A stretch of 64,000 nucleotides of DNA, taken from NCBI GenBank assembly GCA_020161845.1, contig JAIUNK010000014.1, forward strand, positions 1 through 64,000. Direction: 5' to 3'. The position numbers were made by a program, and so were the translations under genes. The notes beneath the pieces were generated by a model. The model was not told the DNA's origin. It did no database searches and saw only the letters and a list, made by a program, of their open reading frames with translations. This document shows positions 2 through 17,670 of the stretch, in pieces; position 1 is the stretch's first letter; the number at the start of each line of letters is the position of its first letter. Source of the stretch: Actinomycetota bacterium. GTDB lineage: Bacteria; Actinomycetota; Actinomycetes; Actinomycetales; Dermatophilaceae.

Positions 2-976
<975 letters not shown>

Positions 977-1001
977 TCCGACAGTCCTGAGCGGATCGCA
1001 C

Positions 1002-1045
1002 CGCGCCGGGCCGGCCCACCGTCAACGGTGGGCCGGCCCGGCGCG
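1002..1045. terminator. Strong bidirectional hairpin terminator after atpD
   Basis: A perfect 19-bp inverted repeat (1002-1020 and 1027-1045) with a 6-nt loop GTCAAC is followed by a short T-rich stretch on the + strand. It lies between the convergent ends of atpD and the serine acetyltransferase-like gene, so it probably ends transcription from both sides. It would end the atp transcript after the beta subunit. Confidence 0.85.
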
Positions 1046-1049
1046 TTTG

Positions 1050-1631
1050 TCACATCGTGCTGGGTTTCCGCACGGGGTTGGCCGGCACACCGACGTACGT
1101 CGTATCCGGTTCGGTGTCCTTGACCACTACGGCACCAGCCCCGACCCGCGTGCCGCGCCGCACGGTGATCGGTCCGATGACCTGGGCGCCGGACCCGAGA
1201 AAGACGTCGTCCTCGACGCGGGGGCCGGGCAGGACGCGACTCATCCCGAGGGTGACGCCGTGATAGATGACCACTCGTGACCCGATGACGCAGCTGGGGT
1301 GAATGATCACCCCTCGGGCGGCGTGCGGAATCCGGACGCCGGGACCGCACACGACCTGGGTGGGCAGCTCAGCACCGATCAGCCCGCGGATCCAGATCCC
1401 GTCGAGAATCTGGACGACACGGCGGAGCACGAAAGCGCCCAATCCCCGCCGCCCACACAGCGCCTGGCCGGCGCGCCAGATCACCAGGGTGACGCGCTGC
1501 ATCGGGTAGGGATTCTTGGGAAAGTCAGCGGCCAGCAGGGTCCGCGCTTCGGCCATCGCATCGCGCACCGACGCCGTCTTGGGGGTCGACAGCGCATCCG
1601 CCGAGCGGGCACCAAAGGTGGGCCAGCGCAT
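1050..1631 (-). CDS. Serine acetyltransferase-like hexapeptide acyltransferase, EPS locus
   Basis: A 193-residue left-handed beta-helix acyltransferase of the serine O-acetyltransferase/WcaB type, probably O-acetylating a polysaccharide sugar rather than making cysteine, given its neighbours. The hexapeptide region runs from about residue 90 to the end, with AARGVIIHP, VVIYHGVTLG and the closing YVGVPANPV typical of the family. The start chosen is the ATG at 1631 because it overlaps the stop of the upstream glycosyltransferase as TGATG, implying translational coupling; the open frame extends further upstream but only as non-homologous low-complexity sequence. A close paralog lies at 12967-13545. 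The acceptor cannot be told from sequence. Confidence 0.82.
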   Translation of the reverse strand: MRWPTFGARSADALSTPKTASVRDAMAEARTLLAADFPKNPYPMQRVTLVIWRAGQALCGRRGLGAFVLRRVVQILDGIWIRGLIGAELPTQVVCGPGVRIPHAARGVIIHPSCVIGSRVVIYHGVTLGMSRVLPGPRVEDDVFLGSGAQVIGPITVRRGTRVGAGAVVVKDTEPDTTYVGVPANPVRKPSTM

Positions 1632-3112
1632 CAGGCGTCCGTGGATGTGCGATCTCGGCGGTGTCGGGACGCTGCCCGGCGGCGGGCGGCCGCGCCGAAG
1701 ACGGCGGTGGCCACCCGCATCGACGCCGCAGCCTGCGAGGTCACGGCCGCCCGCAGCGAAGAGCCCGTCGCTGGCGCGTCGCGTGGGACCGGCACGTCGG
1801 CAGGGGCGGGCACGTCGGGCAGGGCGGACGCGCTCGGGCTCGGGCTCGGGCTCGGATGAGTCGGCACCGAGGTGATGGGTCGTGGGGCGGCCTTGGCGCG
1901 TTGTTCCCGCCAGATCCGCCACAGGAAGAGGGGGTTGCCGATGACGTATCGGCGCCACATGCGTCCCGGCTCCTGGGCCAGTCGCCAGGTCCATTCCATC
2001 CCGATCTCCCGCATCCACAGGGGAGCTCGCGGGATGCGACCGGAATAGAAGTCGAAGAGCCCACCGACGCCGATGAGGACGGCCGGACGTAGCCTGGGCC
2101 GCATTCGCTCCAACCAGATCTCTTGGCGGGGGACACCCATGGCGACGAGGAGAATGCGTGCGCCGGAGGCGTTGATCCGGTCGACCACGTCATCCTCCTC
2201 ACCCCAGACATAACCGTGATGCGTGCCGACGATGCGCAGCCCGGGGTAGGTCTCGGACATCGCCCGACCCGCGGCCTCGGCCACGCCGTCACGAGCACCC
2301 AGCAGGTAGATCGGGGTGTCGGCCAAGGCCGCCCGGGCGCACAACCGGGGAAACATGTCGGTCCCGTTGACGTTCTCCAGGAGCCCGACGCCCTGCATCC
2401 TGCTCGCCAGCTTGATCCCGATCCCGTCGGGAAGCACCAGATCGGCCCGGTGCAGCACCGCGCGGTAGCCCACGTCGCGCACGGCGATGTTGAGGCAGCC
2501 CGGATTGACGAAGCAGACGAGTCGGCCGGCGCCAGGGCCGTCGTCGCGCTCCGCCTGAGTGAGGATCCAGTCCAGGGCTTGTTGCATCGTCTGGTTGGCG
2601 ATGGAGACGTCGAGCATGCGCAGGTGTTCCGGCGTCAGGGTGGCAGGGCCTCCGGAGAGGACCGAGGCCACGATCGACCGCCCGACGAGAGCGAGACCCT
2701 CGCGGGAGAGCACCGAGGGCGGCGGCGGCGCCTCCGTGGGGTCCCCGGTGGCCGCCGCGCCCGGACCGCTGTCGTAGGCAATCCCGATCTGACGCCGAAG
2801 CCGTTGGGCCGAGAACAATCCGGGCTCGGCATTGCGGCGCGGGCTCTCGGCGGGTAGGGCGCGCGCCTCGTCGGAGGTGAGTGGCCGGGGGCCGATGAAG
2901 CGCATTCGGCCGGCGACGACGGCGATGAGGTCAAGGAGGTCCGAGGTGCCGCGCTCCCCAGCGAAGGCGTAGAGCTGGAACGGTCGGCCATCACGATCCA
3001 CGACGGACCGGGAGACCAGGGTGCGCCCGGTGCGCAGCAGGGCGACGACGGCACGCACCGCGAGCGATGGAGCCGCGAGGAGAAGAACGGCGCAGGCCAG
3101 GGCTCTATCCAT
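1631..3112 (-). CDS. WecG/TagA/CpsF glycosyltransferase with degenerate N-terminal sugar-transferase domain
   Basis: A 493-residue two-part protein. Residues about 1-125 resemble a bacterial polyprenyl-phosphate hexose-1-phosphate transferase: a hydrophobic N-terminus, GRPFQLYAF and then GRMRFIGPRPL. The usual Asp-Glu pair of the LDELPQ segment reads LLDL instead, so this half looks catalytically dead. Residues about 165-430 are a WecG/TagA/CpsF (GT26) domain with FVNPGCLNIA, the LPDGIGI segment carrying the family's key Asp, VNGTDMF, and GVPRQEIWLE. It probably adds a sugar to an undecaprenyl-linked intermediate at the inner membrane face. The ATG at 3112 is preferred over one 15 codons upstream because AGAAGGGAG lies 9 nt before it. 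A proline/alanine-rich tail precedes the stop, which overlaps the next gene. Confidence 0.82.
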   Translation of the reverse strand: MDRALACAVLLLAAPSLAVRAVVALLRTGRTLVSRSVVDRDGRPFQLYAFAGERGTSDLLDLIAVVAGRMRFIGPRPLTSDEARALPAESPRRNAEPGLFSAQRLRRQIGIAYDSGPGAAATGDPTEAPPPPSVLSREGLALVGRSIVASVLSGGPATLTPEHLRMLDVSIANQTMQQALDWILTQAERDDGPGAGRLVCFVNPGCLNIAVRDVGYRAVLHRADLVLPDGIGIKLASRMQGVGLLENVNGTDMFPRLCARAALADTPIYLLGARDGVAEAAGRAMSETYPGLRIVGTHHGYVWGEEDDVVDRINASGARILLVAMGVPRQEIWLERMRPRLRPAVLIGVGGLFDFYSGRIPRAPLWMREIGMEWTWRLAQEPGRMWRRYVIGNPLFLWRIWREQRAKAAPRPITSVPTHPSPSPSPSASALPDVPAPADVPVPRDAPATGSSLRAAVTSQAAASMRVATAVFGAAARRRAASRHRRDRTSTDA

Positions 3113-3386
3113 GGCTTGGTTCTCCCTTCTGACCGTGCGGAAAGAGCGCCGGCTCAACGTGCCCAGGCGAGCGAGGGGTCAAACCCCACCGGATGTGATG
3201 TCGATCACAAGACGCTCCGAGCCTGATGGTGTCGGGGGACTCGCAGGAGCGCCAGACCCATTGTGACCCACGCGCTTTGCGCTGCCGCCGTCCGGGGTCG
3301 GCGCGTCGATACCCGATTCATGCGGTCGTCCGGCTCGCCGATGGGATGGCGAAGGGATTCACCGCATTCGCCACGGAAGGCGCGTA
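3113..3386. other. Divergent intergenic region between the WecG-type gene and the malectin-domain gene
   Basis: About 274 bp separates two divergent polysaccharide-locus genes. Apart from the CRP-type dyad and the Shine-Dalgarno sequences of both genes (AGAAGGGAG on the minus strand, GGAAGG before 3387), I see no convincing gene or hairpin here. Both divergent promoters are presumably inside it. Confidence 0.5.
3194..3209. promoter_or_regulatory. CRP/GlxR-type palindromic operator candidate
   Basis: TGTGATGTCGATCACA is an exact TGTGA-N6-TCACA dyad, the consensus of the CRP/GlxR/Rv3676 cAMP-receptor family. It sits in the divergent intergenic region, about 80 bp upstream of the WecG-type gene and about 180 bp upstream of the malectin-domain gene. 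The flanks do not extend the dyad into a hairpin, so it is more likely a protein site than a terminator. The regulator is inferred only. Confidence 0.5.
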
Positions 3387-4946
3387 ATGAGCAATTCTCC
3401 CCAGTCAGCGTTGGCTGCCGTCGCTTCCCGCCATCGCCCACGGGCGCTGACGCGCCACAGAACCCTGGTGTCGGCCCTGATCATCGCGGTCTGTGGTGGT
3501 GCGGCTCCCACCGTCTCGCGGGCGGCCGAACAGAGCTCCCCGGCGCCGTTCGTCCATCGCGCGAACGCCTCGTGGTCGCGGGTGACCGACTCCGCGGGGC
3601 ATGTCTGGGCTCCGCGGGCCGGCTTCGTCGGCGGCTCGTCCGTCACCCAGCGACTGCTCGGCACGGACGTGCGGCGCACCGTCGACGATCGGCTGTTCTC
3701 GGTGTCGACGCTCGACACCACGGGGTTCTCGATCGAGGTTCCGCGCGCCGGTGACTACCGGGTCCGGCTGCTGATGGCGGAGGGCTATTTCACGAACCCG
3801 GCCCAGCGGGTCTTCGACGTGACCGCCGAGGGAGAACCCCTGTTCTCCGCCGTCGACATCGTGGCGGCTGCAGGCCGTGGCGCCGCCTATGTTCGGTCCG
3901 GCCGGGTGGCCGTCGCCGATGGACGCCTCGACCTGAGCTTTGTCGCTCGGGTCAACAGTCCCTCCGTTGCTGCTGTTGAGGTCGTCGAGGCAACCCCGAC
4001 CGCGCTGGTCGATGATCCCGACCCCGTCGATTCGGAGTCCCTGTCCGTAGGGGTCTGGCGTCAGCGAGTCGACCGTGCCCCGTTGGACCCGGACAGCGAC
4101 GTCATCGCCGCCAACCTCCGCCAACAGGTCGTCGATCGGTGGAACGGGGTCGCGGCGTTCAACGCCTACCAGTACAACGCCTCGATCCACACGGTTCCGC
4201 CCGGCCAGCCGAGGGTGGATATCGGCTTTTGGGATTGCCAGAACAAGGGCAAGCTGCCGCCCGGTCTGCTGACCGGGATGGGTCATTATCTCAATGTCCC
4301 GGTGCCGGACAACGCCATGCCGGCAGCTGGCACCGACGGTGAGATGACGATCCACGACCCGGCCGCGGACCAGGCGTGGGAGTTCTGGAAGATGCGCCGC
4401 AACGCCGGGACCGGCGGCTGGGAGGCCTGCTGGGGCGGTCGCATCGATAACGTCTCGGCCAGCCAGGCCATCTTCGACGTACCCTACGGCGTGAGTGCCT
4501 CCGGTCTGCTCATGGGCGGCGGAGTGGTGCGGCTCGCCGACGTGCGCCGCGGCGTCATCGAGCACGCGCTCTATCTCGGTGTGGTGGATTCGCAGGCCTA
4601 TCCGGAAGTGTCCTGGCCCGCGCTGCGCGGTGACGGCAGGGTCGCCGACCTGTACGTCGTGCGCGAAGGCCAGCGGCTGCGCTTGGACCCCACCCTCGAC
4701 CTGTCGCAATACCGACTCACACCGATCGGGCGCATGGTCGCCGAGGCCGCCCAGCGATACGGCTTCATCGTGTCCGACAGCTCCGGCGCGGTCGCGGTCG
4801 CCACCGAGTCGGGAGACGTCGAGGCCGCGGTGACCGGGACCAATCCTTGGCCGGGTCTCATCGGCGGTCCCACCTACCTGGTGATGGAGAACTTCCCGTG
4901 GGAGCACATTCAGGTCGTGGCGGCGGACTACGGTCGAAGCAGGTGA
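3387..4946 (+). CDS. Secreted malectin-domain protein, paralog A of a three-member unknown family
   Basis: A 519-residue exported protein. An N-terminal signal peptide (basic region, hydrophobic LVSALIIAVCGG, cleavage near SRAAEQ, about residue 46) is followed by a malectin-like carbohydrate-binding domain at about residues 60-200 (GFVGGSS, RVFDVTAEGE, AVEVVEA). The C-terminal part, about residues 225-519, is shared with the two downstream paralogs: FNAYQYN, AGTDGEM, WEFWKM, ACWGGRID, YGVSASGL, LTPIGRMVAEAAQRYGF and a closing FPW motif. I do not recognise a named family for this shared domain. Location inside a Wzx/Wzy locus and a sugar-binding domain suggest a role on the extracellular polysaccharide (binding, processing or attachment), but no catalytic motif is evident. 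The ATG has GGAAGG 7 nt upstream. Confidence 0.8.
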   Translation: MSNSPQSALAAVASRHRPRALTRHRTLVSALIIAVCGGAAPTVSRAAEQSSPAPFVHRANASWSRVTDSAGHVWAPRAGFVGGSSVTQRLLGTDVRRTVDDRLFSVSTLDTTGFSIEVPRAGDYRVRLLMAEGYFTNPAQRVFDVTAEGEPLFSAVDIVAAAGRGAAYVRSGRVAVADGRLDLSFVARVNSPSVAAVEVVEATPTALVDDPDPVDSESLSVGVWRQRVDRAPLDPDSDVIAANLRQQVVDRWNGVAAFNAYQYNASIHTVPPGQPRVDIGFWDCQNKGKLPPGLLTGMGHYLNVPVPDNAMPAAGTDGEMTIHDPAADQAWEFWKMRRNAGTGGWEACWGGRIDNVSASQAIFDVPYGVSASGLLMGGGVVRLADVRRGVIEHALYLGVVDSQAYPEVSWPALRGDGRVADLYVVREGQRLRLDPTLDLSQYRLTPIGRMVAEAAQRYGFIVSDSSGAVAVATESGDVEAAVTGTNPWPGLIGGPTYLVMENFPWEHIQVVAADYGRSR

Positions 4947-4977
4947 TGGACTCTCAGCGCAGCGGATGCTGACGGTC

Positions 4978-5964
4978 TCACCGCAGCACCTCCTCCGACG
5001 TCCGGCCGATCCGAGCGTCGATGCGCAAGAGCCGGGCCCGCCACAGGCGAGCGGCACCGGGGATTCGCGCGATCGTGCTGGATTTGACCAGCGTCTGCGG
5101 GTCCTGGCTGGACAGGGTCGCCAAGGTGGCGTAAATGTCGCGAGCGGCCCCGATGTCGCCGCTGCGCAGCGCTTGCTGGCCCTCCAGATCCAAGAGGCGG
5201 GGAGCCTTGGTCTGCAGCCGTCGCTCAAGGAAGGCACGCTCTGCAGCGGACAACTGCGGTCCGTGTCGATCCAGCACGCCCCGCAGGATCTCCGTCTCCA
5301 CGTCGTACCCGGCGGGGTGCGTCGACTTTGCGCTGGGGCTCCATCGGTAGAGCGCATGGGCCTGCGGCTGGTAGACGATCTGCCAACCGGACAGGACGGC
5401 CCGAAGCCAGAGCTCCCAGTCTTCGCGGTAACGAAGGTGTGCGTCAAAGACTCCGACCTCCTCCAGGAGGCGCCGCGGAAAGAACGTGAAGATGGAAACC
5501 ATGTTCTTCTGGAGCATCCCGAGGCGCTGATCGGCCCGTTGGTTGAACCGCCGCCCGACCATCCGGCGGCCGTGCCCGATGCCGGCCGCGGTGAGGAGCA
5601 CGGCGTCGTTCATCACCAGTTTTCGGCCGCCGCCGGCCTCTTGGTAGGCGCGCAGACTGGTCGCCACATAGGGCGGCAACAGCACGTCGTCACTGTCGCA
5701 GAGGGCCAGGAAATCACCGGTCGCCTCGAGCAGTCCCGCATTGCGCGCTGACGCCGTGCCGCCGTTGGTGACGCGGCGATACCGGATCAGGTCGCCATAG
5801 GCGGCACAGATTTCCTGAGTTCGATCGGTCGAGCCGTCGTCGACGACGATCAATTCCACCCGGGGGTAGTCCTGGGTGAGCACCCCAGTGATGGCCGCGC
5901 CGATCGTCTCCTGCGCGTTGTACGCCGGCATGATGACGCTGACCAGCGGTTGCCGAGCTGACAT
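4978..5964 (-). CDS. Family 2 glycosyltransferase
   Basis: A 328-residue GT-A fold glycosyltransferase, presumably extending the lipid-linked repeat unit of the exopolysaccharide in the cytoplasm. It opens with PLVSVIMPAYNAQETI, then the nucleotide-binding VVDDGSTDRT and the metal-binding DSDD (DXD) motif near residue 92, and YREDWELWLRA, the usual acceptor-side EDW motif. The C-terminal ~100 residues are helical and not assigned. The ATG at 5964 is favoured over an adjacent in-frame TTG because a GGGGG run lies 6 nt upstream. It is convergent with the malectin-domain gene (31 bp between stops). Sugar specificity is unknown. Confidence 0.88.
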   Translation of the reverse strand: MSARQPLVSVIMPAYNAQETIGAAITGVLTQDYPRVELIVVDDGSTDRTQEICAAYGDLIRYRRVTNGGTASARNAGLLEATGDFLALCDSDDVLLPPYVATSLRAYQEAGGGRKLVMNDAVLLTAAGIGHGRRMVGRRFNQRADQRLGMLQKNMVSIFTFFPRRLLEEVGVFDAHLRYREDWELWLRAVLSGWQIVYQPQAHALYRWSPSAKSTHPAGYDVETEILRGVLDRHGPQLSAAERAFLERRLQTKAPRLLDLEGQQALRSGDIGAARDIYATLATLSSQDPQTLVKSSTIARIPGAARLWRARLLRIDARIGRTSEEVLR

Positions 5965-6121
5965 CAAGCCCCCATGGGTTGTCCTAGGCCGTTGGGCCGC
6001 AGTCTAACTGGGTTGTGGAGGTCGTCCTTTCGGCTCGTACACTCGAGGCCGCGGGATGCGATCGGCCCCGCGATCCACCCGCCGAGCAGTCACCATCTCG
6101 GCCGTCGAAGGGACCTCGCGC

Positions 6122-7741
6122 ATGCGCCCGGTGTCCGGTCCCCACGACAGCGTGGACGAGCATCGCGACAGCGTGGACGCCCAGGCCTCCGGTTCCGGTT
6201 CCGCGGACCGGGTGGCCCCCGGGTCGGGCCAGAAGTCGCGGGCCTCGATTCTCGTGCGGGGCAGTTCATGGCAGGTGTTGGCGCAAGTCGCGCCGTTGGT
6301 CGTGAATCTTGTGTTGACCCCCTTCGTGATCACCCGCCTCGGCGTCACCGCATACGGGTTCTTCGTCCTGACGAGCATGCTGACGCAGTTCCTCAGCCAA
6401 TTCGACGGAGGCATCGGCAGAAGCGCGCAGCGCTTCTTCATGCTGTACGCCGGGCGCAATGATCCGGTCGCCGCCACGCGGCTGCTCGTGAGCTTGCTCC
6501 TGTTGGTCCTGGGGGTGTCGATGCTCACGCTGGGCACGGCCATCGTGCTCGCCCCGTCGATCATGGTGTTCTTCCACGCCCCGCCCGATCTGTTTGCTGA
6601 TGCGGTGCTGCTCCTGCGGGTGCTGTCGGTGATCGTGGCGATCGCGTTGGCGCGCAATCTGTTCGCATCGGTGCTGTATTCCCACCAACGCTTCGCCATC
6701 ACCTCCGGCACGCTGTTGCTCGGATATCTCGTCTACGCGGTCGGCATCGTGGTCGTGCTCAACGCCGGGATGGGTCTTGCGGGACTGGCCTACGTCTTCA
6801 TCGCGCAGCAGGCCGTGGGCACCATGACGATCGTGCCGTCTGCCTGTCGCCACTTGAGCAGGCGTGGCATCGGCTTCATCAGCAGGTCGGAGCTGCGCGA
6901 GTTTCTGGGATTCACCTGGAAGGTGCAGATCTCGGGGCTGCTTGGTGCGCTGACCTTTCAGGGCGTGACGATGATCGTGGGCCGGATGGTCCCGGCGCAG
7001 CTGGCCTACTTCGCTCCGGGCGCCACCTTTGCGCAGCAACTGCGGATGCTGCCGAACAACGCGATGGTGCCGATTCAGACCATGCTGGGCCGGGCCATCG
7101 GGCACAAGGGTGCCGCAGCGGCCGTCGAGGACTACGCCGCCATTCAGCGAATGTGGGTCCCGGCGGTTTGTGGCTGGGTGGCCGTCGGGGCGCCCACGGC
7201 ATATTTCGGGGTGAACAACTGGCTGCCACTCGGCGGCGTCCTGCCCGGCCTCGTCGCCGGCACCCTGCTGTGCGCTCACCTGTTCGCGATGCTGCAGTCC
7301 GTCCTGCTGCAATGGGCGATGCTGCTGGGGCGCCCCTCCTACGAAGTGTGGGCGCAAGCTCTGAACGCGGTACTGACGCTGATCCTGTCCCCCCTGTTCA
7401 TCCGGGGGGTGGGCGCCTTCGGCGTGGCGCTCGCCCTGCTCGCCGGGCAGCTCACCGCGTTCCTGTATCTCGCCACCGCGACCCGGCGTCTCCCGGTGAG
7501 GGTGCCCTCCGTGTTCTCCGTCGTTCCCCTCGGCAGAATGCTGCTGGCAGCGGCCCTGAGCTTCGCCTGCGGCTACGGGATGGACCGGTTGTTGGCGGCC
7601 GGGTCGCCCAAACACGGGGCCTTGGCGCTGCTGGCCTGCGCCCTGGCGGCGGTGCCGGCCGCGGTCTTCTACGTCGGCACGACGATCGGCATCGCCCGGG
7701 TCCGTGACCTCATCCGACGCCGCAAGGCTGGATCAGGATGA
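6122..7741 (+). CDS. Polysaccharide flippase, Wzx/MATE-like
   Basis: A 539-residue polytopic inner-membrane protein of the polysaccharide transporter (PST/MOP) superfamily, expected to flip undecaprenyl-linked repeat units across the membrane. After a hydrophilic, Ser/Asp-rich N-terminus of about 50 residues there are roughly 12-14 hydrophobic segments, starting at VLAQVAPLVVNLVLTPF. Positions such as RLGVTAYGFF and SQFDGGIGRSAQRF fit the family. An in-frame ATG exists at 6056, but 6122 is preferred because GAAGGGA is 8 nt upstream. The 3' end overlaps the convergent downstream gene by 9 bp. Together with the Wzy-like and Wzz-like genes it completes the export core of a Wzx/Wzy-dependent pathway. 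Confidence 0.88.
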   Translation: MRPVSGPHDSVDEHRDSVDAQASGSGSADRVAPGSGQKSRASILVRGSSWQVLAQVAPLVVNLVLTPFVITRLGVTAYGFFVLTSMLTQFLSQFDGGIGRSAQRFFMLYAGRNDPVAATRLLVSLLLLVLGVSMLTLGTAIVLAPSIMVFFHAPPDLFADAVLLLRVLSVIVAIALARNLFASVLYSHQRFAITSGTLLLGYLVYAVGIVVVLNAGMGLAGLAYVFIAQQAVGTMTIVPSACRHLSRRGIGFISRSELREFLGFTWKVQISGLLGALTFQGVTMIVGRMVPAQLAYFAPGATFAQQLRMLPNNAMVPIQTMLGRAIGHKGAAAAVEDYAAIQRMWVPAVCGWVAVGAPTAYFGVNNWLPLGGVLPGLVAGTLLCAHLFAMLQSVLLQWAMLLGRPSYEVWAQALNAVLTLILSPLFIRGVGAFGVALALLAGQLTAFLYLATATRRLPVRVPSVFSVVPLGRMLLAAALSFACGYGMDRLLAAGSPKHGALALLACALAAVPAAVFYVGTTIGIARVRDLIRRRKAGSG

Positions 7742-8860: not shown

Positions 8861-8946
8861 CGACTCGAGTTCCGGCGCGGGGAGGGGAACTGTTTGATGG
8901 TCGAGTCCCCATTCGTCGGTGCCGCTGCGAAGCTGAGCGGGCTACC

Positions 8947-10029
8947 TCACCGGGGTCCGGCAGGGTCGGGCGCCACGACGACCACCCGGTCCCAGGGGAA
9001 GCCCTTCATGACGGCGTAGGAGGGCCCGCCGAGCAGGTCTGACCAGGGGTCCTGCCCCGTGCGAGCCTTCACCGGGGTACCACTCTCGGCCACCACGCCG
9101 ACCGCTCCAGCCGTGTCCACGACGATGAAGCCGTAGATCTGCGCCGCTCGGGCGACGGCTGCGGCCACGGCGGTCAACCCGAGCGAGTCGACGTCGACCG
9201 CCGGGTCGAGGCGGAGCCGCGTGCCGATCGGCATGGCGTCACTGGCGCGATTCACTCCGTCGCTGCGGGTCGCGGGCGGGCGGACGGTGCGCCAGTGCGC
9301 AGGAGCGGGAATGGCCAGGCCGATGGCATGGGTGATGCGTCCGTCCCTGGCCTCCTCCACCCGGACGGCGGAGCCAGTGGAGGACAATCCCGAAGCCGAC
9401 ACGCCGTAGGGCAGTGGGAAAGCGCCCCTGTTGGCCGACACGTGGTCGATCCGTCCGCCCCAGCAGGCCTGCCACGACCCGTCAGCGCGCTGATGGGCTT
9501 TCCAGAACTCCCACAGCTGGTCGGTGTCCGGGGACCAGACGCCGAGCTCTCCGTCCGTGCCTTCGGAGGCCTTCGCGTCCTCGGGGATGGGAACGTTGCG
9601 GAAGTGCGCGGGACCGTCGAAGAGTCCCTTGCTGGGCGCACCCTTGTGCTGACAGTCATCGAAGCTCACGTCCCGGCGGGGCGTGTCGGCGCCGGCCACC
9701 GCGAGGCTCATCGAATACGCCGAGGAGTTGAACGCGGCCACCCCGCCGTAGCGCGTCGCGATGCTCCGTCGTAGCGATGCCATCATCGCGGCTGAGCGGG
9801 GATCGGTGGCTCGTTGCCCGATCGGTTGAGTGAAGACGCTGTCCGGCGCGAACTGCGGCCCGTTCGAGCGGGTCGCCGGTGTCGCGCTCGGCCGGGGCGG
9901 TGTGCCGCCGGGCCTCGCCTCCGGGCCGCCGGCGCCGGCCAGGAGCACCAGGACGGCGAGGGCACCCAGGGTGGCACGGCGCCAGCGCGTCGCCCGGCGG
10001 CTCGGCGGAACCCGGGGCGGCCGCGTCAT
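8947..10029 (-). CDS. Secreted protein of unknown function, paralog C
   Basis: A 360-residue exported protein: a very basic N-terminus (PPSRRATRWRR), a hydrophobic core LGALAVLVLLAGAGG, then a Pro-rich linker. Residues about 55-360 carry the same domain as paralogs A and B with more divergence: FNSSAYS, SEGTDGEL, LWEFWKA, ACWGGRID, YGVSASGL, AAQIYGFIV, DPWSDLLGGP and FPW. The frame is open far upstream, but that part overlaps the acyltransferase and glycosyltransferase genes out of frame. The ATG at 10029 lies 5 nt after the acyltransferase stop, which indicates co-transcription. Function is unknown; export plus the operon with sugar-modifying enzymes suggests work on the polysaccharide outside the cell. 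Confidence 0.78.
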   Translation of the reverse strand: MTRPPRVPPSRRATRWRRATLGALAVLVLLAGAGGPEARPGGTPPRPSATPATRSNGPQFAPDSVFTQPIGQRATDPRSAAMMASLRRSIATRYGGVAAFNSSAYSMSLAVAGADTPRRDVSFDDCQHKGAPSKGLFDGPAHFRNVPIPEDAKASEGTDGELGVWSPDTDQLWEFWKAHQRADGSWQACWGGRIDHVSANRGAFPLPYGVSASGLSSTGSAVRVEEARDGRITHAIGLAIPAPAHWRTVRPPATRSDGVNRASDAMPIGTRLRLDPAVDVDSLGLTAVAAAVARAAQIYGFIVVDTAGAVGVVAESGTPVKARTGQDPWSDLLGGPSYAVMKGFPWDRVVVVAPDPAGPR

Positions 10030-10034
10030 GGTGC

Positions 10035-10586
10035 TCAGGGGTGCGTCGGCGTGCGGGACCGGATCACGGCCGCCGGGTTGCCGCCGACGATGCTGTAGGG
10101 CGCGACGTCCTTGGTGACCACGGACCCGGCGGCGACGATCGCGCCGCGGCCGATCCGGACGCCGGCCAGCACGATACAGCCGGCACCGAACCACACGTCG
10201 TCCTCGACGACGACGGGCCGGTCCTCGACGAGTCCCTGATGGTTCATCGGGCGTGACACGTCGCTGAAGTTGTGGTCGTAGCTGATGAACACGCACCGGG
10301 GGCCCATCATCACGTCGGAGCCGATGGTGACCGAACCCATCACGAGGCAGTCCACGCCCAGGTCGGAACGGTCCCCGAGGCGGATGCCCTTGCCAGAGCC
10401 GAACCACGCGCCGCACTCGATGTTGACGTTGGCCCCGGCCTCGTCGATCATCCGCGAAACCAGGAACCTGCGCACTCGCTGACCGGTGCGACCTCCGACG
10501 GCGTAATGGCGGGGCAGATGTCGACCTAGCGTGTAATAACCGACGTAGCAGGCCGCCCGCTTCGCGTAGCGCAGTCGTGGGTCCAT
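10035..10586 (-). CDS. Hexapeptide-repeat O-acetyltransferase, WbbJ/maltose-acetyltransferase-like
   Basis: A 183-residue left-handed beta-helix acetyltransferase. Hexapeptide turns occupy about residues 52-175, with the loop FISYDHNFSD containing the catalytic-type His, then VEDDVWFGAGCIVLAGV and the closing PYSIVGGNPAAVI. This is the CysE/LacA/NodL superfamily, commonly found decorating exopolysaccharide sugars. The ATG at 10586 has GAGAGG about 6 nt upstream. It lies between a GT2 gene (68-bp gap filled by 10-bp tandem repeats) and secreted paralog C (5-bp gap), probably in one transcript. Acceptor sugar unknown. Confidence 0.85.
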   Translation of the reverse strand: MDPRLRYAKRAACYVGYYTLGRHLPRHYAVGGRTGQRVRRFLVSRMIDEAGANVNIECGAWFGSGKGIRLGDRSDLGVDCLVMGSVTIGSDVMMGPRCVFISYDHNFSDVSRPMNHQGLVEDRPVVVEDDVWFGAGCIVLAGVRIGRGAIVAAGSVVTKDVAPYSIVGGNPAAVIRSRTPTHP

Positions 10587-10600
10587 GTCTTCCTCTCGTA

Positions 10601-10650
10601 GGGATCGCGCGGGATGGGGCGGGATCGTGCGGGATCGGCGGGGATCGGAG
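10601..10650. repeat. Five tandem 10-bp repeats, GGGATCGNGC type
   Basis: Five consecutive decamers starting GGGAT (GGGATCGCGC, GGGATGGGGC, GGGATCGTGC, GGGATCGGCG, GGGATCGGAG) fill almost the whole 68-bp space between the GT2 and acetyltransferase genes. A related three-unit array occurs at 22841-22870. The 10-bp period would put every unit on the same face of the helix. Confidence 0.75.
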
Positions 10651-10654
10651 TCGT

Positions 10655-11524
10655 TCAGCGCGTGGACCCGTCGCGGTGCCAGGCGGGCCCGCCGGCACCC
10701 CTGGCCCGCCGTCGCGCCTCGAGGATGACGGCCAGATAGACCATCGTGGGGCCGAGCAGCCGCGGGTTCGTGCCGACCAGCCGACCGAGGGCGCGCAGGG
10801 TGTCCAGCGTCGAGGCCGAGGTGTCCGGCGCCTGGTCACCGGCCGCGCCGCGGGCGAGATCGGTATTGCCCGCCGCCACCCGGGTGCGCACCGCCAGCAA
10901 CGCGCCGGTCGTTCTCGGCACCCGAACGGTCGCGTATCCGGGAACGCGAATCCGCTCCTGCGGGGCGAAGTGCCGCTGAGCGAACAGGTCGTCACCTCGA
11001 ACCTGCGGGAACTGCGCCCATCGGGCACGGCCGCTCTGCGAGACGCCATACACCCCGACGCCCCCCAGACTCTCGGTCGCGTAGGGCAACTCGGCGAAGA
11101 CTCGGTGAAACGCGCGGGAGGTCCAGGAGGCGCCCGTCGTCTCGAACCGCGCCGCGGGCGCGGCCAGCACCGCGGCAGGGGTGCTCAGGGCCTCGGCGAG
11201 CGCGGCGACGGTCCCTGGGGAGAGCACGATGTCGGCGTCGAGATAGAGCCTCGGGAAGACGGTGCTGGCGGCGTCCCCGGCGTTGAGTGCCTTGCTCTTG
11301 TCGCCTTCGGCGAGTTCCACGACCCGTACGCCGTACCCGCGCGCCACCTCCGCCGTGTCGTCCGTGCAGCCGTTGGTGACCACGACGACCTCGACGGCCA
11401 GCGCTCCGTCGGCGTCGCGTTCCGCACGCTGCAGGGCCGCCAGACACGCGCCGAGGACCGATGCCTCGTTGTGGGCCGGGATGACGACGGAGATCTGACG
11501 GGGCTGGCGGGCGGTGCTGACCAC
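10655..11524 (-). CDS. Family 2 glycosyltransferase
   Basis: A 289-residue GT-A glycosyltransferase of the exopolysaccharide locus. It has ISVVIPAHNEASVL, VVVVTNGCTDDT and the metal-binding LDADI motif near residue 116, with DKSKALNAGD typical of GT2 enzymes that use activated sugars. The C-terminus is about 100 residues shorter than processive GT2 enzymes and lacks clear membrane segments. The open frame begins at 11632, but the GTG at 11524 is preferred: CGAAGGG lies 5 nt upstream and homology begins right after it. It heads a minus-strand run with the acetyltransferase and secreted paralogs C and perhaps B, and is divergent from the GT4 gene. Specificity unknown. Confidence 0.85.
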   Translation of the reverse strand: MVSTARQPRQISVVIPAHNEASVLGACLAALQRAERDADGALAVEVVVVTNGCTDDTAEVARGYGVRVVELAEGDKSKALNAGDAASTVFPRLYLDADIVLSPGTVAALAEALSTPAAVLAAPAARFETTGASWTSRAFHRVFAELPYATESLGGVGVYGVSQSGRARWAQFPQVRGDDLFAQRHFAPQERIRVPGYATVRVPRTTGALLAVRTRVAAGNTDLARGAAGDQAPDTSASTLDTLRALGRLVGTNPRLLGPTMVYLAVILEARRRARGAGGPAWHRDGSTR

Positions 11525-11682
11525 AGGGACCCTTCGCTCGTACCCCCTGCGGGCTTGCGACGAGGGGCCTTGGCGGACAATACAATCGGGGACGACGTGA
11601 CCATCGTGCCATCCGCCGGCCGACGCCGGCACATCGGCCGGATCGATCCGCCGGGGCCTCGACGAACTGGAGTACTGCGACC

Positions 11683-12954
11683 ATGCCGACCGAGCAACTC
11701 CGCGTCGCGTACCTCGTCAGCCAATACCCGGCCCTGTCGCACACGTTCATCGAGAGCGAGATCAACGGCCTGCGCGAGTTGGGCGTCGAGGTGCACACCT
11801 TCAGCGTCCGCCCCGCACCGCAGGCGGAGTTGATCACCCCGGCATTGCGGGCCGAGGCGGCCCGGACCGAGGTGATCCTCGGCCGCCCCAAGGCCGCCAT
11901 CCTGCGCGCTCAGGCACGGTTGGCGCGGCGCTCGCCCCAGGTTTATGCGACTCTGCTGGCCCGGGCGGCCCGCACCGGCCTGCCGACACCGAAGGGTCGG
12001 TTGTGGCAGTTGTTCTACTTCGCCGAGGGGGTCATCCTCTGGCAACTGCTGCAGGAGCGGGGACTGCGCCACGTGCACGTGCACATGGCCAACGTGGCCG
12101 CCGATGTCGCGCGGACGGCTGTGGCCATCGGGACGGCCCTGGACGGTCCCGATGCCGGCTGGCGCTGGTCCTTGACGGTGCATGGCCCGGGCGAGTTCGA
12201 GGTGGTGCAGCAGTGGGACGTGCCGGACAAGATCCGCTCAGCCCGGGCCATCGCCCCGATCAGCGACTTCTGCCGAAGCCAGTTGATGCGCCTCGTCGAG
12301 CCCGAGCAGTGGGCCAAGATGCGGGTGGTGCGAATGACCGTGGACACCTCCCGGTTCGCCCCCCCGATCGGCGGTCGAGCCGATCACGGCGGCCCGCTGC
12401 GCGTCCTGTCGGTGGGGCGTCTGGTGCCGCAGAAGGGTGGACCGGTGCTGATCGACGCCCTGAACCTGCTGGCCAAGCGCGGCATCGCGGTCGTGGCTCG
12501 CATCGCTGGTGGCGGCCCGCTGGACGCGGATCTGCGCGCCGCCGTACGTCGGCTCGGGCTCGCTGATCGGGTGGAGTTCCTCGGCCCCGTGGCCCAGGAG
12601 GACATTGTGGCGCAATACCACTGGGCGGACGTTTTCGTGCTGCCCTCCTTCCAGGAGGGCCTCCCGGTGGTGCTCATGGAGGCGATGGCCACCGGCTTGC
12701 CGGTCGTGACCACCCAGATCGCCGCCGTCCCCGAGCTGGTCGCGGATGGTGACATGGGCCGGGTGGTTCCTGCCGGACGCGCCGACCTCATCGCCGACGC
12801 CCTGGCGGCGGAGGCCGCTCTCGGGGTGGCGGGACGGCATGAGCAGGGGCGGCGCGGTCGCGCCGCCGTCGAGCGCGAATTCACGTCGGCGACCGCGGCC
12901 CCTGCCATGGCCGAGTTCCTGCGCGCCGCCGGCGAGCCGCAACCCCTGGGGTGA
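11683..12954 (+). CDS. Family 4 glycosyltransferase, colanic-acid WcaL-like
   Basis: A 423-residue GT-B glycosyltransferase. The N-terminal domain opens with LRVAYLVSQYPALSHTFIESEI, the usual acceptor-side start of WcaL/AmsK-type colanic acid transferases (position about 6-27). The C-terminal donor domain has LSVGRLVPQKGG, ARIAGGGPL and the EX7E motif in EGLPVVLMEAMATG (about residues 325-340). It probably transfers a sugar from a nucleotide donor to a lipid-linked oligosaccharide. The ATG has GGAG 9 nt upstream. It is divergent from the GT2 gene (158-bp gap) and convergent with the second SAT-like gene (12-bp gap). Sugar donor not determinable. Confidence 0.88.
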   Translation: MPTEQLRVAYLVSQYPALSHTFIESEINGLRELGVEVHTFSVRPAPQAELITPALRAEAARTEVILGRPKAAILRAQARLARRSPQVYATLLARAARTGLPTPKGRLWQLFYFAEGVILWQLLQERGLRHVHVHMANVAADVARTAVAIGTALDGPDAGWRWSLTVHGPGEFEVVQQWDVPDKIRSARAIAPISDFCRSQLMRLVEPEQWAKMRVVRMTVDTSRFAPPIGGRADHGGPLRVLSVGRLVPQKGGPVLIDALNLLAKRGIAVVARIAGGGPLDADLRAAVRRLGLADRVEFLGPVAQEDIVAQYHWADVFVLPSFQEGLPVVLMEAMATGLPVVTTQIAAVPELVADGDMGRVVPAGRADLIADALAAEAALGVAGRHEQGRRGRAAVEREFTSATAAPAMAEFLRAAGEPQPLG

Positions 12955-12966
12955 GAAGCTCCGGCG

Positions 12967-13545
12967 TCAGGCCTGGGGTGCGGCGGAGCCTAATGGCTTG
13001 GCGGGCACGCCGACGTACGTCGTGCCGGGCAGGGTATCGGTGAGCAGGACGGCGTTGGCGCCCACCGAGGTGCCGTCCGCCAGCGTGATGTCCCCGAGCA
13101 CCTTGGCACCGGCGGCGAGATAGACCCCGTCGCCGATCCTGGCCGCACGACCCTCGTCGCGCATGAGGCCGATCGTGACCTCGTGGTACAGCGTGCAGTC
13201 GGCTCCGATCGTGGCGCTGGGGTGGATGACGCAGCCGCGGGCGGAGTGGGGCAGCCACAGCCCTGGACCGATCGGCACGCTGGTGGGGATCTCGGCGCCG
13301 AGGACGCCATGGAACCAGACGGCCACCGCGAGGCGCTGGACGATGCGCAGCAGCACCGACAGCGGATCCCGGCGGTGCGCGAGGAGGTTGCCGGCGCGCC
13401 ACAGCACCAGGGTGATCCGCTGCCCCAGGCGGGGGTTACGGGCGAAGTCGCGGGCGAGGTCGGCGCGCAGCGCCACGATGGCGTCGGTGAGGCTGGGCCT
13501 GGGCTTGGGTCTGGGCATCGTGTCGTCGCGTCGGGCTGGGTTCAT
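12967..13545 (-). CDS. Second serine acetyltransferase-like hexapeptide acyltransferase
   Basis: A 192-residue paralog of the enzyme at 1050-1631, with the same order: an N-terminal helical part ending in QRITLVLWRAGNLL, then hexapeptide turns including ARGCVIHPSATIG, CTLYHEVTIG and the closing TYVGVPAKPLG. It likely O-acetylates a sugar of the exopolysaccharide. The ATG at 13545 has TTAGGAGAT 7 nt upstream, a good ribosome site. However, that site lies inside the open frame of the Wzy-like gene, whose stop is only at 13436, giving a 110-bp overlap. Homology to the paralog requires translation from at least residue 18, so the overlap cannot be removed by choosing a later start. Confidence 0.82.
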   Translation of the reverse strand: MNPARRDDTMPRPKPRPSLTDAIVALRADLARDFARNPRLGQRITLVLWRAGNLLAHRRDPLSVLLRIVQRLAVAVWFHGVLGAEIPTSVPIGPGLWLPHSARGCVIHPSATIGADCTLYHEVTIGLMRDEGRAARIGDGVYLAAGAKVLGDITLADGTSVGANAVLLTDTLPGTTYVGVPAKPLGSAAPQA

Positions 13546-15007
13546 GGCTGCTATCTCCTAAGGGTCGACCGGCGGCCCGACGAGTGAATCGATCGCGTCC
13601 CGCCGCAGCCGCGCCTGGGTCCCGACGCAGCTTCCTTGCGTCCCGCACCGGCCGCGGGACGGACACTGCGCGCCAGAAGTCCTGGTCGAGTTCCTGCCCG
13701 GCGCCACGCACCAGGATGGGGCGCGCGGCGATCCCCGCAAACGTCCAGATCAGGTAGTTCGGCAAGGGGGAAGCGTTGGGGGAGAGCGCCAAGGGCGGCA
13801 GCAGAACGCCGAGCGAGGCGATCAACAGGAGCTGCCACTGGCGCAGATCGCCGCGGCCGCGCACCAGGGCGGCGCGGAACGGCCCCAGCAGATACGTCAG
13901 CACGGTCAGGGCAGCGGCTGGCAGGCCCAATTCCGCGGCTCGAGAAAGGACGACGTTATGGACCTCGATGCTGGTGTTCGTGAGGGGGTAGTCGTCGGCC
14001 TGCCGTACCCAGTCGTTTCCGCCGAGCACGAATCGTCCCCAGCCGATCCCGGTGAGTGGCTCGGCGGCCACCGCGCGCAGTGCGGCGTCGTTGACGTTCT
14101 GACGGTCATAGAGGCTCGACTCCTGCGTGAGGCGGGAGTTGAAGGACTCGGCCAGCTGCGGCACAGCCGGGACGGCGAGGGCCAGGCCGAGGACGACGGC
14201 GATCAGCAGGCCCGCCACATACCGGCGGGCGGGTCGGTGCACGACAGCCACGAGGACCGGACCGAGCAGGATGCCCACCCACACGGATCGGGTCAGCGTG
14301 AGGACGGCACCGGCGGCGCACAAGACCATGGCCAGGCCTGCCCCCGGCCGCCACAGGCTGCCGCGCGTGCTGCGCGCGTAGACCAGAGCGGCACAGAAGA
14401 AGGCCAACGCCAGTGCCATGCCGTTCGTCTCGGCGATCACGAAGGGTCCTCGGGCGCGTCCGATGTGGATCCCGAGCGAGGGATCGGTGATGTATCGAGG
14501 CCACACGAGCGAGGGGGCGAACATCTCGGCAATCGCCGTGGCGCCCAGATACACCCCAATGAGAGTCACGGTCTTCAACAGCAGGTCACGGCGTTCCGGG
14601 GTGGTGAAGACCAACGGAGCGACCATGAAGAGCAGGAAGGGGACGGCGATGCGATCGAGGAGAGCGAACTGCGCTAGCGGTCTCGAGATCGTGCCGGCGG
14701 CTGCTGCAGAGGCCAGCGCGATGGCGACGAGCAACGCCATCAGGACGTAGAGGTCCTGCCAGCGCAGACGTTCGGTGCGACGGTCCAGCAGGAGCAGCAC
14801 CAACCCGGCGGGGATGAACAGTCGGTCGCCGCTGACGGGAAGGCCGATGTACTGCGAGTAGCCCGAGAACATGTCGAGAACGAAAGCGGCCAGGAAACAC
14901 CAGACGTAAGCGGGGTGGCGCATTGTTTGGGAATCGTGCAAACGCCGCCACGCGCTGGTCCACAGGTGGGCAACGCGCCCGCGCGCGATGGCGGCCGTGG
15001 CGGTCAC
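13436..15007 (-). CDS. O-antigen polymerase/ligase-like membrane protein (Wzy)
   Basis: A 523-residue polytopic membrane protein with about 11-12 hydrophobic segments and the Wzy_C/O-antigen ligase hallmarks: VLTLTRSVWVGILLG, LTGIGWGRFVLGG and the long periplasmic stretch before VHNVVLSRAAELGLPAAAL. It is the likely polymerase of the repeat units. The GTG start at 15007 overlaps the stop of the Wzz-like gene as GTGA, a coupling signature. The last ~40 residues (Arg/Gln/Pro-rich) are read through the start of the next gene and do not look conserved; either the stop was lost, the overlap is real, or a 1-bp sequence error extends the frame. Confidence 0.82.
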   Translation of the reverse strand: MTATAAIARGRVAHLWTSAWRRLHDSQTMRHPAYVWCFLAAFVLDMFSGYSQYIGLPVSGDRLFIPAGLVLLLLDRRTERLRWQDLYVLMALLVAIALASAAAAGTISRPLAQFALLDRIAVPFLLFMVAPLVFTTPERRDLLLKTVTLIGVYLGATAIAEMFAPSLVWPRYITDPSLGIHIGRARGPFVIAETNGMALALAFFCAALVYARSTRGSLWRPGAGLAMVLCAAGAVLTLTRSVWVGILLGPVLVAVVHRPARRYVAGLLIAVVLGLALAVPAVPQLAESFNSRLTQESSLYDRQNVNDAALRAVAAEPLTGIGWGRFVLGGNDWVRQADDYPLTNTSIEVHNVVLSRAAELGLPAAALTVLTYLLGPFRAALVRGRGDLRQWQLLLIASLGVLLPPLALSPNASPLPNYLIWTFAGIAARPILVRGAGQELDQDFWRAVSVPRPVRDARKLRRDPGAAAAGRDRFTRRAAGRPLGDSSHEPSPTRRHDAQTQAQAQPHRRHRGAARRPRPRLRP

Positions 15008-15912
15008 TCGGGGATACCGGCGCCATCTGCGCCGACGGCGGCGGGCGCGCGAGACGGGCGGCCGAGGTCCTCCGCAGCGGGGTCGAGGCGGCGGCGCCTG
15101 CGGCGGTCGGTGGACATGGCGAGGGCGATGGACAACGCAGCGCCGACCCCCAGACCGCCGACGCCATAGCGCTGCAGCTGAGACTTGCGGGTGTCGCCGG
15201 TAATGACGGCCCGGCCCTCGCCGATGCGCTTGAGCTCACTCGCGCTTGAGGCGTTCGCGCGCAGCCGGCTATAGACCGAGGCCGCGGCATCTCGTTCGAG
15301 CGAGGCCTTTCCTGCCGCGATCCGCGCGGCAACAACCGCCTGGCCGGCTGCCTGGATGTCGGCCTCGGGAGCCTTGGCCCCCACCAGTTGGGCGTAGGCC
15401 GCCTGGGCCTGGGTCAGTGTCAGCTCGGCCTCCGCGGCCGGCTTGGCCAGATCCGAGTACTGCGCAAAGGCGGCGGCGGGGTTCTGGTCCTTCTTGGAGT
15501 TGCTGACCGCCTCCATCAATTGCACGGCGGCGTTGTCCGCGGCGCGGCGCGCCGTGTCCGCGCTGTGCGACTGGGCTTCGATGCGGATGACGCCGGATTC
15601 GGGTATCGGAGAGGCGGTCACCGAGCTGTCCCGGTCGCCGCCCAAGGTGCCATCGACCGCGGAGTTCACCACCCAGCGGGAATACTCCTGCGCCAACGTT
15701 CGGGCCGCCTGCGGAAAGGCGGTGACTTCCCCGGTGCTCAGCGGCCCGGGGCCCACGGCGAGGCGGGTCTCCGCCGTGACCAGGGGTGCTTGCGCGTTGC
15801 CGAGCCCGGCGCCGGCGAGAGTGCACAGCGGGATGAGGATGAGCGGATAGACCCAGTGCGCCGCCAGGGCCTGCAGCGGCGTCCTCCCAGGGGCCTGTGG
15901 TTCGTCGGTCAC
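15004..15912 (-). CDS. Wzz/YveK-like polysaccharide chain-length determinant
   Basis: A 302-residue protein with two membrane segments bracketing an extracytoplasmic helical domain: HWVYPLILIPLCTLAGAGLG near residue 20 and GVGGLGVGAALSIALAM near residue 255. The middle is Ala/Gln-rich and predicted coiled coil (ELTLTQAQAAYAQLV). This is the layout of polysaccharide co-polymerases that set chain length with Wzy. No tyrosine-kinase domain is fused and none is nearby. The open frame extends to 16158, but the GTG at 15912, preceded by GAGGAG, is the likely start because homology begins shortly after it. It heads the operon Wzz-Wzy-SAT2. Confidence 0.78.
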   Translation of the reverse strand: MTDEPQAPGRTPLQALAAHWVYPLILIPLCTLAGAGLGNAQAPLVTAETRLAVGPGPLSTGEVTAFPQAARTLAQEYSRWVVNSAVDGTLGGDRDSSVTASPIPESGVIRIEAQSHSADTARRAADNAAVQLMEAVSNSKKDQNPAAAFAQYSDLAKPAAEAELTLTQAQAAYAQLVGAKAPEADIQAAGQAVVAARIAAGKASLERDAAASVYSRLRANASSASELKRIGEGRAVITGDTRKSQLQRYGVGGLGVGAALSIALAMSTDRRRRRRLDPAAEDLGRPSRAPAAVGADGAGIPE

Positions 15913-16218
15913 GCAACTCCTCGTCGGGGACAGATGGGACGGTGACCATGAGCCGGCGGACTCGCGCTCGCGCCAGACCATGCGACCGCCCTCGGTGATT
16001 CCCCGTAGCATGCCACGCCCGGCCATGCTCTCGGACGTCCGCCCCGCCGCACAGGGTCTCGAAATGGATTGGCGTGCTGGGGCTCTCAGCCGGCGCGCTG
16101 CTGCCCCGGAGTGCCGCACCCAGCGGAGCCGGACGGTCGGCCTCCGGCGGTGGGCCATCGGCTAGGTCGACTCGGATAGACTCCCTGGCATACCCACCCG
16201 CGAGACCGGAGGACTACC
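15913..16218. other. Divergent intergenic region at the EPS/atpC junction
   Basis: About 306 bp separates the Wzz-like gene (minus) from atpC (plus). Because atpC is detached from atpD, a promoter for atpC must lie here; TAGACT at 16177-16182 is a possible -10 box about 37 bp before the start codon, but I see no good -35. The rest is GC-rich without a convincing gene or hairpin. No integrase, transposase or attachment-site repeat is visible at this edge. Confidence 0.4.
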
Positions 16219-16494
16219 GTGGCATCTCTGCATGTCGAGCTCGTTGCCGCAGACCGGCAGGTCTGGCAGGGCGAGGCCCGGATGATCAGCGCCCGCGGCA
16301 TCGAGGGCGAGCTGGGCATCATGCCGGGGCACGCCCCGCTGCTCACGGTGCTGGTCGAGGGAGATGTCCGGATCGACGGTGACGGCGGTCGGCAGACCGC
16401 GCACATCGACGGCGGATTCCTGGCGGTCGATGAGAACCACGTCCGCATCGTCGCCGAGACGGTGACCACCGCGTCCAGCCCCGCGCGGGGTTGA
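16219..16494 (+). CDS. atpC: F1 ATP synthase subunit epsilon
   Basis: A 91-residue epsilon subunit, the rotor-stalk and regulatory subunit of F1. The N-terminal beta-sandwich is complete, with LHVELVAADRQVW, IEGELGIMPGHAPLLTVL and AHIDGGFLAVDENHVRIVAE. The C-terminal helical hairpin is essentially absent, as in several actinobacterial short epsilon subunits. The start is GTG with GGAGG 6 nt upstream. It sits about 15.2 kb from atpD instead of next to it, but keeps its normal downstream neighbours (DUF2550-type gene 4 bp away, then the cobalamin adenosyltransferase), which shows that the polysaccharide genes interrupt the usual order. Confidence 0.95.
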   Translation: MASLHVELVAADRQVWQGEARMISARGIEGELGIMPGHAPLLTVLVEGDVRIDGDGGRQTAHIDGGFLAVDENHVRIVAETVTTASSPARG

Positions 16495-16498
16495 CGCC

Positions 16499-16942
16499 GT
16501 GGCGGCGCTGGTCACGGCTGAGATCGTGGTCGGCGCCTGCCTGTTCGCGGCGCTTGCAACCCTGACCCATATCTTCGTCCGTCGCCGCCTGCTGGCCCGC
16601 AGCGGCGACCTCATGCTGTGTGCCCTGCGCATCGGATCGGGGGAGCGCTGGCGGGCCGGTCTGTTGCGGTTCGACGACGTCTCGATCGCCTGGTTGCCGC
16701 TGCTCGGCATGACCCTTCGCCCCTCGCACTGCTGGGAGCGGCAAGGCCTCGACCTCGGCGGGTTCGCCCAGCTCGGGCCTGGGGACGCGCTGGACTCCGG
16801 ATCGGTCCGGGCGGTGCTTCGGGGCGTCCCGATCGGGCGGGGACCGGTCGAGGTCGAACTCGCCCTCGGTCAGCAGCCCTACACCGCCCTGCGCGCCTGG
16901 GTGGAGGCGACCCCGCCGGAACGTCGTCCGGTCGACTGGTAG
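16499..16942 (+). CDS. DUF2550-type single-pass membrane protein
   Basis: A 147-residue protein with one N-terminal membrane segment (VTAEIVVGACLFAALATL) followed by RRRLLARSGD and a small cytoplasmic beta-rich domain with WRAGLLRFDD. I recognise this as the DUF2550 family that follows atpC in many actinobacteria; its function is unknown. The GTG start is 4 bp after the atpC stop, so the two are co-transcribed. Its stop is 1 bp from the convergent adenosyltransferase stop. Confidence 0.8.
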   Translation: MAALVTAEIVVGACLFAALATLTHIFVRRRLLARSGDLMLCALRIGSGERWRAGLLRFDDVSIAWLPLLGMTLRPSHCWERQGLDLGGFAQLGPGDALDSGSVRAVLRGVPIGRGPVEVELALGQQPYTALRAWVEATPPERRPVDW

Positions 16943-17573: not shown

Positions 17574-17664
17574 GAGGTCGATCCTCGCAGAGCCGCTGGG
17601 CGAAGTGCCCTGATGTGTGAGCGCATTCACCAGCGCTAAGACCGCGAGGAATGCGCAGGTCGGA

Positions 17665-17670
17665 TACCTT
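17665..17670 (+). promoter_or_regulatory. Candidate leaderless -10 box for ecm
   Basis: TACCTT (TANNNT) ends 6 nt before the ATG at 17677, and no Shine-Dalgarno sequence is visible. This spacing places the transcript start at or next to the start codon, as in actinobacterial leaderless mRNAs. No clear -35 is seen. Confidence 0.45.

Follow-up and report, generated by a model that had tools for sequence, protein, structure and literature searches.

The stretch analysed here (the window) comprises the first 64,000 bases of the 110,214-bp contig C68 (G000:C68) of a genome taken to be Austwickia, in the Dermatophilaceae as defined by GTDB. The contig starts inside atpD, the gene for the beta subunit of the F1Fo ATP synthase, and the atpD frame (2-976) is open up to its stop codon. 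The gene for the epsilon subunit, atpC, does not follow in the standard atpDC adjacency; the atpD stop and the atpC start are 15,242 bp apart, and thirteen genes in mixed orientations, spanning 1050 to 16158, lie between them. The features at the two edges of this split are:

2..976, plus strand: atpD (F1 beta), 3' two thirds, with its stop codon at 974-976; the 5' part (about the first third) lies beyond the contig end
1002..1045, plus strand: terminator-like hairpin with a perfect 20-bp stem (1002-1021 / 1026-1045) and a TCAA loop
16177..16182, plus strand: -10-like element TAGACT, 42 bp upstream of the atpC start and at a similar position in relatives
16208..16212, plus strand: ribosome-binding site of atpC, GGAGG
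16219..16494, plus strand: atpC (F1 epsilon), GTG start, 91 aa, N-terminal domain PF02823 only

The product of the gene at 16219 matched PF02823 with an E value of 1.1e-25 (89.9 bits, cut-off 27), and a profile search found no second match in the whole genome. Judged from its sequence, its identity as epsilon stands on this domain and on synteny. The hairpin sits between atpD and the convergent neighbouring gene; the 80 nt 3' of atpD (977-1056) had a folding energy of -57.9 kcal/mol (z -7.48), and none of 200 shuffles was equally stable. Contig C60 carries the upstream atp genes in the usual order of the standard atpBEFHAGDC operon (atpA and atpG were identified by tblastn to relatives, other labels partly by eye). 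The end of C60 (L036 1-753) carries an in-frame fusion inside atpD to a GH130-like frame (GC 0.566 vs 0.689). This end overlaps C68:1-172 at 98.8% and then departs from atpD into the GH130-like frame, which was not found elsewhere in the assembly. From its sequence, the fused end is probably an assembler chimera, and it lies outside the window.

A first-pass annotation of the window had described atpD, thirteen polysaccharide-related genes in mixed orientation, and atpC with a GTG/GGAGG start next to DUF2550 and PduO genes. All these parts were confirmed, with the end of atpD at 976 and the start of atpC at 16219. The terminator that it placed after atpD is also present, with a stem of 20 bp instead of the 19 bp claimed. 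It had named an assembly join at about 1.0 or 16.2 kb as a result that would refute the split; this was not borne out, and the split is no peculiarity of one genome. The same split was found in 4/4 Austwickia genomes examined, with an atpD-atpC distance of 13.2 kb in G001, 14.6 kb in G002 and 13.2 kb in G003. The assembly of G003 consists of two contigs, and both genes are located together on its 3,628,119-bp main contig.

The distance between atpD and atpC, taken between match ends, was measured in 171 of the 186 Dermatophilaceae genomes. In ten of the others the genes were on different contigs or the atpD match was absent (G008, G080, G086, G108, G109, G121, G129, G130, G205 and G032), G134 had a weak epsilon fragment only, and G070, G131, G199 and G204 had no epsilon match. 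G072 and G129 each had two epsilon matches, of which a single one was used; those of G129 are inverted on one contig (G129:C20:34778-35014 and 38977-39213), possibly an assembly duplication. Gaps ranged from an overlap to 23,517 bp. They were shorter than 30 bp in 19 genomes and reached at least 1 kb in 96, at least 2 kb in 55, at least 5 kb in 27 and at least 10 kb in 18. A member with at least 1 kb was present in 35 of the 51 genera, and a gap of 0.5-23.5 kb in 38/51. Match distances of 11-17 bp correspond to overlapping genes, as read in four representatives. Knoellia is among the short-gap relatives and Nostocoides among those with overlapping genes.

Outside the family the two genes are close together. 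The order sample contained 139 genomes, from which 10 family members and G051 (no match) were removed. Among the remaining 128, the gap was below 300 bp in 126 and below 100 bp in 108; the two longer gaps, of 896 and 1,492 bp, belong to a single genus of family f5. Both genes were present in 79 named loci, mostly of Streptomyces, and the gap there was about -1 to 350 bp, two Humibacillus loci (1.7-1.8 kb) excepted; in the 80th locus, of A. chelonae, the 10 kb upstream contain no atpD.

To see what the gaps contain, 68 regions were read (65 from the family and 3 from f2 and f5). In 66 of these, 278 cargo proteins were called; the two remaining genomes, of g14, were read by tblastn instead, and one representative of each cargo family was named by Pfam. 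The cargo varies by lineage. A polysaccharide locus occupies the gap in genera g1, g13, g55, g57 and g59, in g14 (by tblastn) and, in part, in g6. A Xan_ur_permease was found in 12 genera and a large asparagine synthase in 5, and 44 cargo proteins were singletons. An NDH-2-type oxidoreductase lies between atpD and atpC in 9 genera (g15, g16, g21, g26, g28, g29, g33, g60 and g74; e.g. L175:511-1908). A gene for a nameless protein of about 210 aa (L155:337-975 and homologs) occurs in the gap in 6 family genera and in outgroup f5, and is possibly the oldest cargo. On an atpA-atpG-atpD tree of 67 rows (out of 80), which was also used for the tree test, the gap class (<500 vs >500 bp) changed at least 10 times; G008 and G129, which could not be measured, were scored as large gaps since in both the locus follows atpD. 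As the cargo differs by lineage, the sequence comparison indicates that the site between the beta and epsilon genes has long been prone to insertion.

A spacer between the two genes was present in 64 of the 68 regions (61 from the family, 3 from f2 and f5), the other 4 having overlapping genes. The first 100 bases (or fewer) after atpD were folded and compared with shuffles. A hairpin with z<-3 was found in 55/64 spacer regions, including those of the short-gap genera g17, g32 and g12 and of family f2, and in 50/71 named loci with a spacer of more than 60 bp. The motif TANNNT was present 20-80 bp before atpC in 61/64 regions (shuffled mean 11.8, maximum 23 in 200) and in all representatives of 41/43 groups (41 family genera plus f2 and f5). 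Upstream of other genes it was rare: 1/59 for DUF2550, 2/55 for PduO and 33/278 for cargo genes. Named non-family loci with a spacer, again mostly Streptomyces, had TANNNT 20-90 bp upstream in 65/66, a count made without a shuffled control. Both signals were thus present in outgroup f2, in Streptomyces and in relatives with a spacer of only 120-175 bp. Because insert-free relatives and Streptomyces have the hairpin and the -10-like element, epsilon was most likely transcribed separately before any insertion. The separate epsilon promoter proposed in the first-pass annotation accordingly corresponds to a promoter-like element that is present, while its view that the insertion alone uncoupled epsilon does not agree with the same signals in these short-gap genomes.

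The genes inserted in the window, and those that follow atpC, are:

1050..1631, minus strand: hexapeptide acyltransferase (PF00132)
1631..3157, minus strand: WecG/TagA/CpsF glycosyltransferase (PF03808, E 1.3e-64) with a partial sugar-transferase segment (PF02397, E 5.5e-8)
3387..4946, plus strand: protein with malectin (PF11721) and phage-tail-like domains, likely secreted (signal peptide by eye)
4978..5967, minus strand: GT2 glycosyltransferase (PF00535)
6056..7741, plus strand: Wzx/MOP-type flippase, labelled via congener homologs, no Pfam hit of its own
7733..8860, minus strand: phage-tail-like domain protein, paralog 2, likely secreted (by eye)
8947..10035, minus strand: phage-tail-like domain protein, paralog 3, structure predicted, likely secreted (by eye)
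10035..10586, minus strand: hexapeptide acyltransferase (PF00132)
10655..11632, minus strand: GT2 glycosyltransferase (PF00535)
11683..12954, plus strand: GT4 glycosyltransferase, EpsE-like (PF13692; NF041876 with E 1e-64, below its cut-off)
12967..13545, minus strand: hexapeptide acyltransferase (PF00132)
13436..15007, minus strand: Wzy_C polymerase/ligase-type membrane protein (PF04932, E 2.5e-15)
15004..16158, minus strand: Wzz-like protein (weak label), no Pfam hit of its own; 3 homologs match PF02706 below cut-off
16499..16942, plus strand: DUF2550 protein (PF10739), the usual neighbour of atpC
16944..17744, minus strand: PduO-type cobalamin adenosyltransferase (PF01923)

The last two genes are also found 3' of atpC in most relatives. 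Of the thirteen inserted genes, 8 have polysaccharide-type Pfam hits above cut-off (three hexapeptide acyltransferases, WecG/TagA, two GT2, GT4 and Wzy_C), in agreement with the polysaccharide character first assigned to them. The remaining 5 are the malectin-domain gene, two without a Pfam family, and the flippase and Wzz-like genes, which were labelled from homologs. Among five flippase homologs, two (L143, L145) reached the PF13440 cut-off, two matched MurJ below cut-off and one matched nothing; the three Wzz-like homologs tested matched PF02706 only below cut-off. The Wzy-type polymerase/ligase of a Wzx/Wzy locus is represented by the PF04932 protein, and the sole candidate signal for an initiating phosphoglycosyltransferase is the partial PF02397 match within the WecG protein.

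The three paralogs (3387-4946, 7733-8860 and 8947-10035) have a domain in common with the minor tail proteins of Gordonia phages (phrog_17388); neither Pfam nor NCBIfam gave a family for it here. All 22 aligned members matched the phrog_17388 profile (best E 4.3e-14), and the likeness holds in sequence and in predicted fold. A double-psi-barrel transglycosylase of the MltA-like kind was considered as a candidate fold. A Foldseek search of the predicted structure of the 8947-10035 protein against the Protein Data Bank gave 126 matches with E<=10, none of them at E<=0.001. When the aligned paralogs were searched against solved structures, 7 matches were obtained, all to the N-terminal part; they are chains with malectin or other sugar-binding domains, one of them named just as a protein kinase. 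The locus copies differ from the phage proteins in being stand-alone or malectin-fused bacterial proteins, and no further phage genes were seen in the locus.

No integrase or transposase was found among the Pfam hits of the thirteen genes, and no repeat pair of at least 25 bp links the two junctions; the repeats detected lie within the insert. An integrative mobile element was therefore rejected; the first-pass annotation had likewise seen no integrase or flanking repeat. A search of a plasmid collection gave no match. The annotation's view that the insertion looks old was supported, and the homologous locus is present in the congeners and in further genera. The GT4 gene of the locus (E<=1e-70) was detected in 24/186 genomes: in 18, across 7 genera, on the atpD or atpC contig and on the expected side, in 3 on contigs that leave the linkage unsettled (G070, G108, G109) and in 3 elsewhere (G153, G164, G187). 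The atp tree unites genera g1, g6 (G008), g13, g14, g55 and g59 in a single clade (support 92). A single clade that includes g57 was not rejected (AU p 0.418, quick tree), and in the locus tree g57 groups with g55 (support 88).

Compared with A. chelonae, identity in the flanks was 98% for atpD, 89% for MeaA, 76% for PduO, 70% for atpC and 60% for DUF2550, and in the cargo 34-69% (11 genes). The GT4 gene is on the plus strand in the window (11683-12954) and on the minus strand, relative to atpC, in A. chelonae (L143), where GT2b is also on the minus strand. Gene order within the locus is rearranged between the Austwickia congeners.

Taken together, these comparisons make it quite probable that the beta/epsilon junction is a transcription-unit boundary that tolerates inserts, and that in the Austwickia group it is filled by a long-resident exopolysaccharide locus of the Wzx/Wzy type. 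atpD would end in a terminator-like hairpin, and the predicted -10 element about 40 bp upstream of atpC would start this gene independently. As nothing between the two signals would have to be co-transcribed, the gap could tolerate foreign DNA, and different lineages would have loaded it with different genes. In Austwickia and many relatives from soil and animals, other genes apparently sit between these two nearly always neighbouring genes because atpC already had its own start signal. In Austwickia and the closest genera the locus has probably been in place since their common ancestor. Most of its genes appear to diverge and rearrange faster than the flanks, and the locus is probably exchanged by homologous recombination via these conserved flanks, by analogy with capsule loci.

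Several observations weigh against this interpretation. Its basis is sequence, from which promoter activity, hairpin function and the route of insertion were inferred, and the genomes are related, so the counts are not independent. Hairpins were weaker than z -3 in 9/64 regions, and TANNNT is missing from the tested stretch in the two g14 genomes and in one representative of g56. A sigma-70 scan requiring a -35 box as well found no promoter before atpC. The flank gene DUF2550 (60%) diverges as much as some of the cargo. In the atp tree the polysaccharide genera do not group as a single clade: g57 stands apart (weak support), and G109 of g6, represented by atpD alone, is placed elsewhere. G128 and G082 take different positions in this tree and in the locus tree.

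A more far-reaching version of the boundary interpretation is possible but should be taken as tentative. The junction might be a standing docking site, insulated by the terminator-promoter pair, at which cassettes are repeatedly loaded and swapped via the flanks and epsilon is regulated independently. The cassette of the Austwickia group would then combine a surface polysaccharide with polysaccharide-binding or -cutting proteins that carry the phage-tail domain.

It is unlikely that a recent insertion split a co-transcribed atpD-atpC pair and that epsilon gained its promoter afterwards. Elsewhere in the order a gap below 100 bp is usual (108/128), and an ATGA overlap, read in one representative each, fits the 11-17 bp distance in all measured genomes of g2, g20 and g62 and in 2/3 of g58. 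However, the hairpin and the -10 element occur in short-gap relatives, Streptomyces and outgroup f2, and the locus is common to several genera. The genera with overlapping genes are nested within spacer-bearing ones, and the overlap therefore looks derived there.

We give just as little credence to selection, rather than tolerance, holding the polysaccharide locus beside the ATP synthase genes, for instance because envelope synthesis is tied to energy status. The GT4 gene has been kept at the atp site in 18/24 genomes from 7 genera, and some cargos are energy-related (the NDH-2-type enzyme in 9 genera and, by eye, formate-dehydrogenase-like genes in G026). Most cargos, however, are mutually unrelated (uracil permease, asparagine synthase, TerC and, by eye, MurT/GatD-like proteins), and a convergent hairpin parts atpD from the locus, so co-transcription is unlikely.

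An assembly artefact, in which atpD and atpC were wrongly joined to a polysaccharide contig, is very improbable and, for the arrangement as such, is refuted by the congeners: although the same assembly holds the chimeric end of C60, measures 4.39 Mb against 3.5-3.6 Mb in the congeners and has a listed contamination of 4.4, both junctions are within one 110-kb contig, the homologous locus is at the same place in three independent congeners (one in a 3.63-Mb contig) and in further genera, and the GC content of the insert (0.69-0.71) equals that of its surroundings.

Wzx/Wzy capsule or exopolysaccharide loci held between conserved housekeeping genes are known from the pneumococcal cps type. The locus described here resembles that type in its glycosyltransferases and Wzy-type protein, in its putative flippase and candidate Wzz-like protein, and in being a fast-diverging cassette with conserved flanks. 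It differs in that both flanking genes encode subunits of the same enzyme complex, and a tyrosine-kinase gene is absent among the Pfam hits of the thirteen genes. A single extra open reading frame between the beta and epsilon genes is known in Rhodobacter (Rhodopseudomonas) blastica; the junction is the same, but there it concerns one gene in one species, compared with 0.5-23.5 kb in 38/51 genera here. A survey of 2,248 strains (PMC5709465) gives 78.6% of the units in Actinobacteria as standard, and the five atp-gene combinations named in its section 16 never separate epsilon from beta, whereas here epsilon is alone. Our literature search, whose coverage excluded most subscription journals, found no report of a family-wide beta/epsilon split. 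We regard the split as a variant form of operon splitting at an insertion-prone site.

The epsilon subunit itself is short in this family. It measures 85-97 aa in 68/68 regions, compared with 122-131 aa in 70/73 named non-family loci, and would therefore be without C-terminal helices. A C-terminal helical (inhibitory) domain was not found, as judged by length in the 68 regions and by Pfam in the copy of the window. In other bacteria these helices inhibit ATP hydrolysis, and epsilons without the C-terminal helical domain exist. Since epsilon here appears to consist of the N-terminal domain only, its exact dosage may be less critical and loose control may be tolerable.

Few gene orders in bacteria are as conserved as that of the F1Fo ATP synthase operon, and the reason for the adjacency of epsilon and beta is an old question. 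Here, one family spans the range from overlapping genes to a gap of 23.5 kb, with testable signals, and so makes it possible to examine if the 1:3 ratio of epsilon to beta depends on co-transcription. In S. coelicolor, synthesis is reported to be proportional (PMC4895711). The site also illustrates how accessory genes may gain entry to an essential operon at a terminator-promoter boundary within it.

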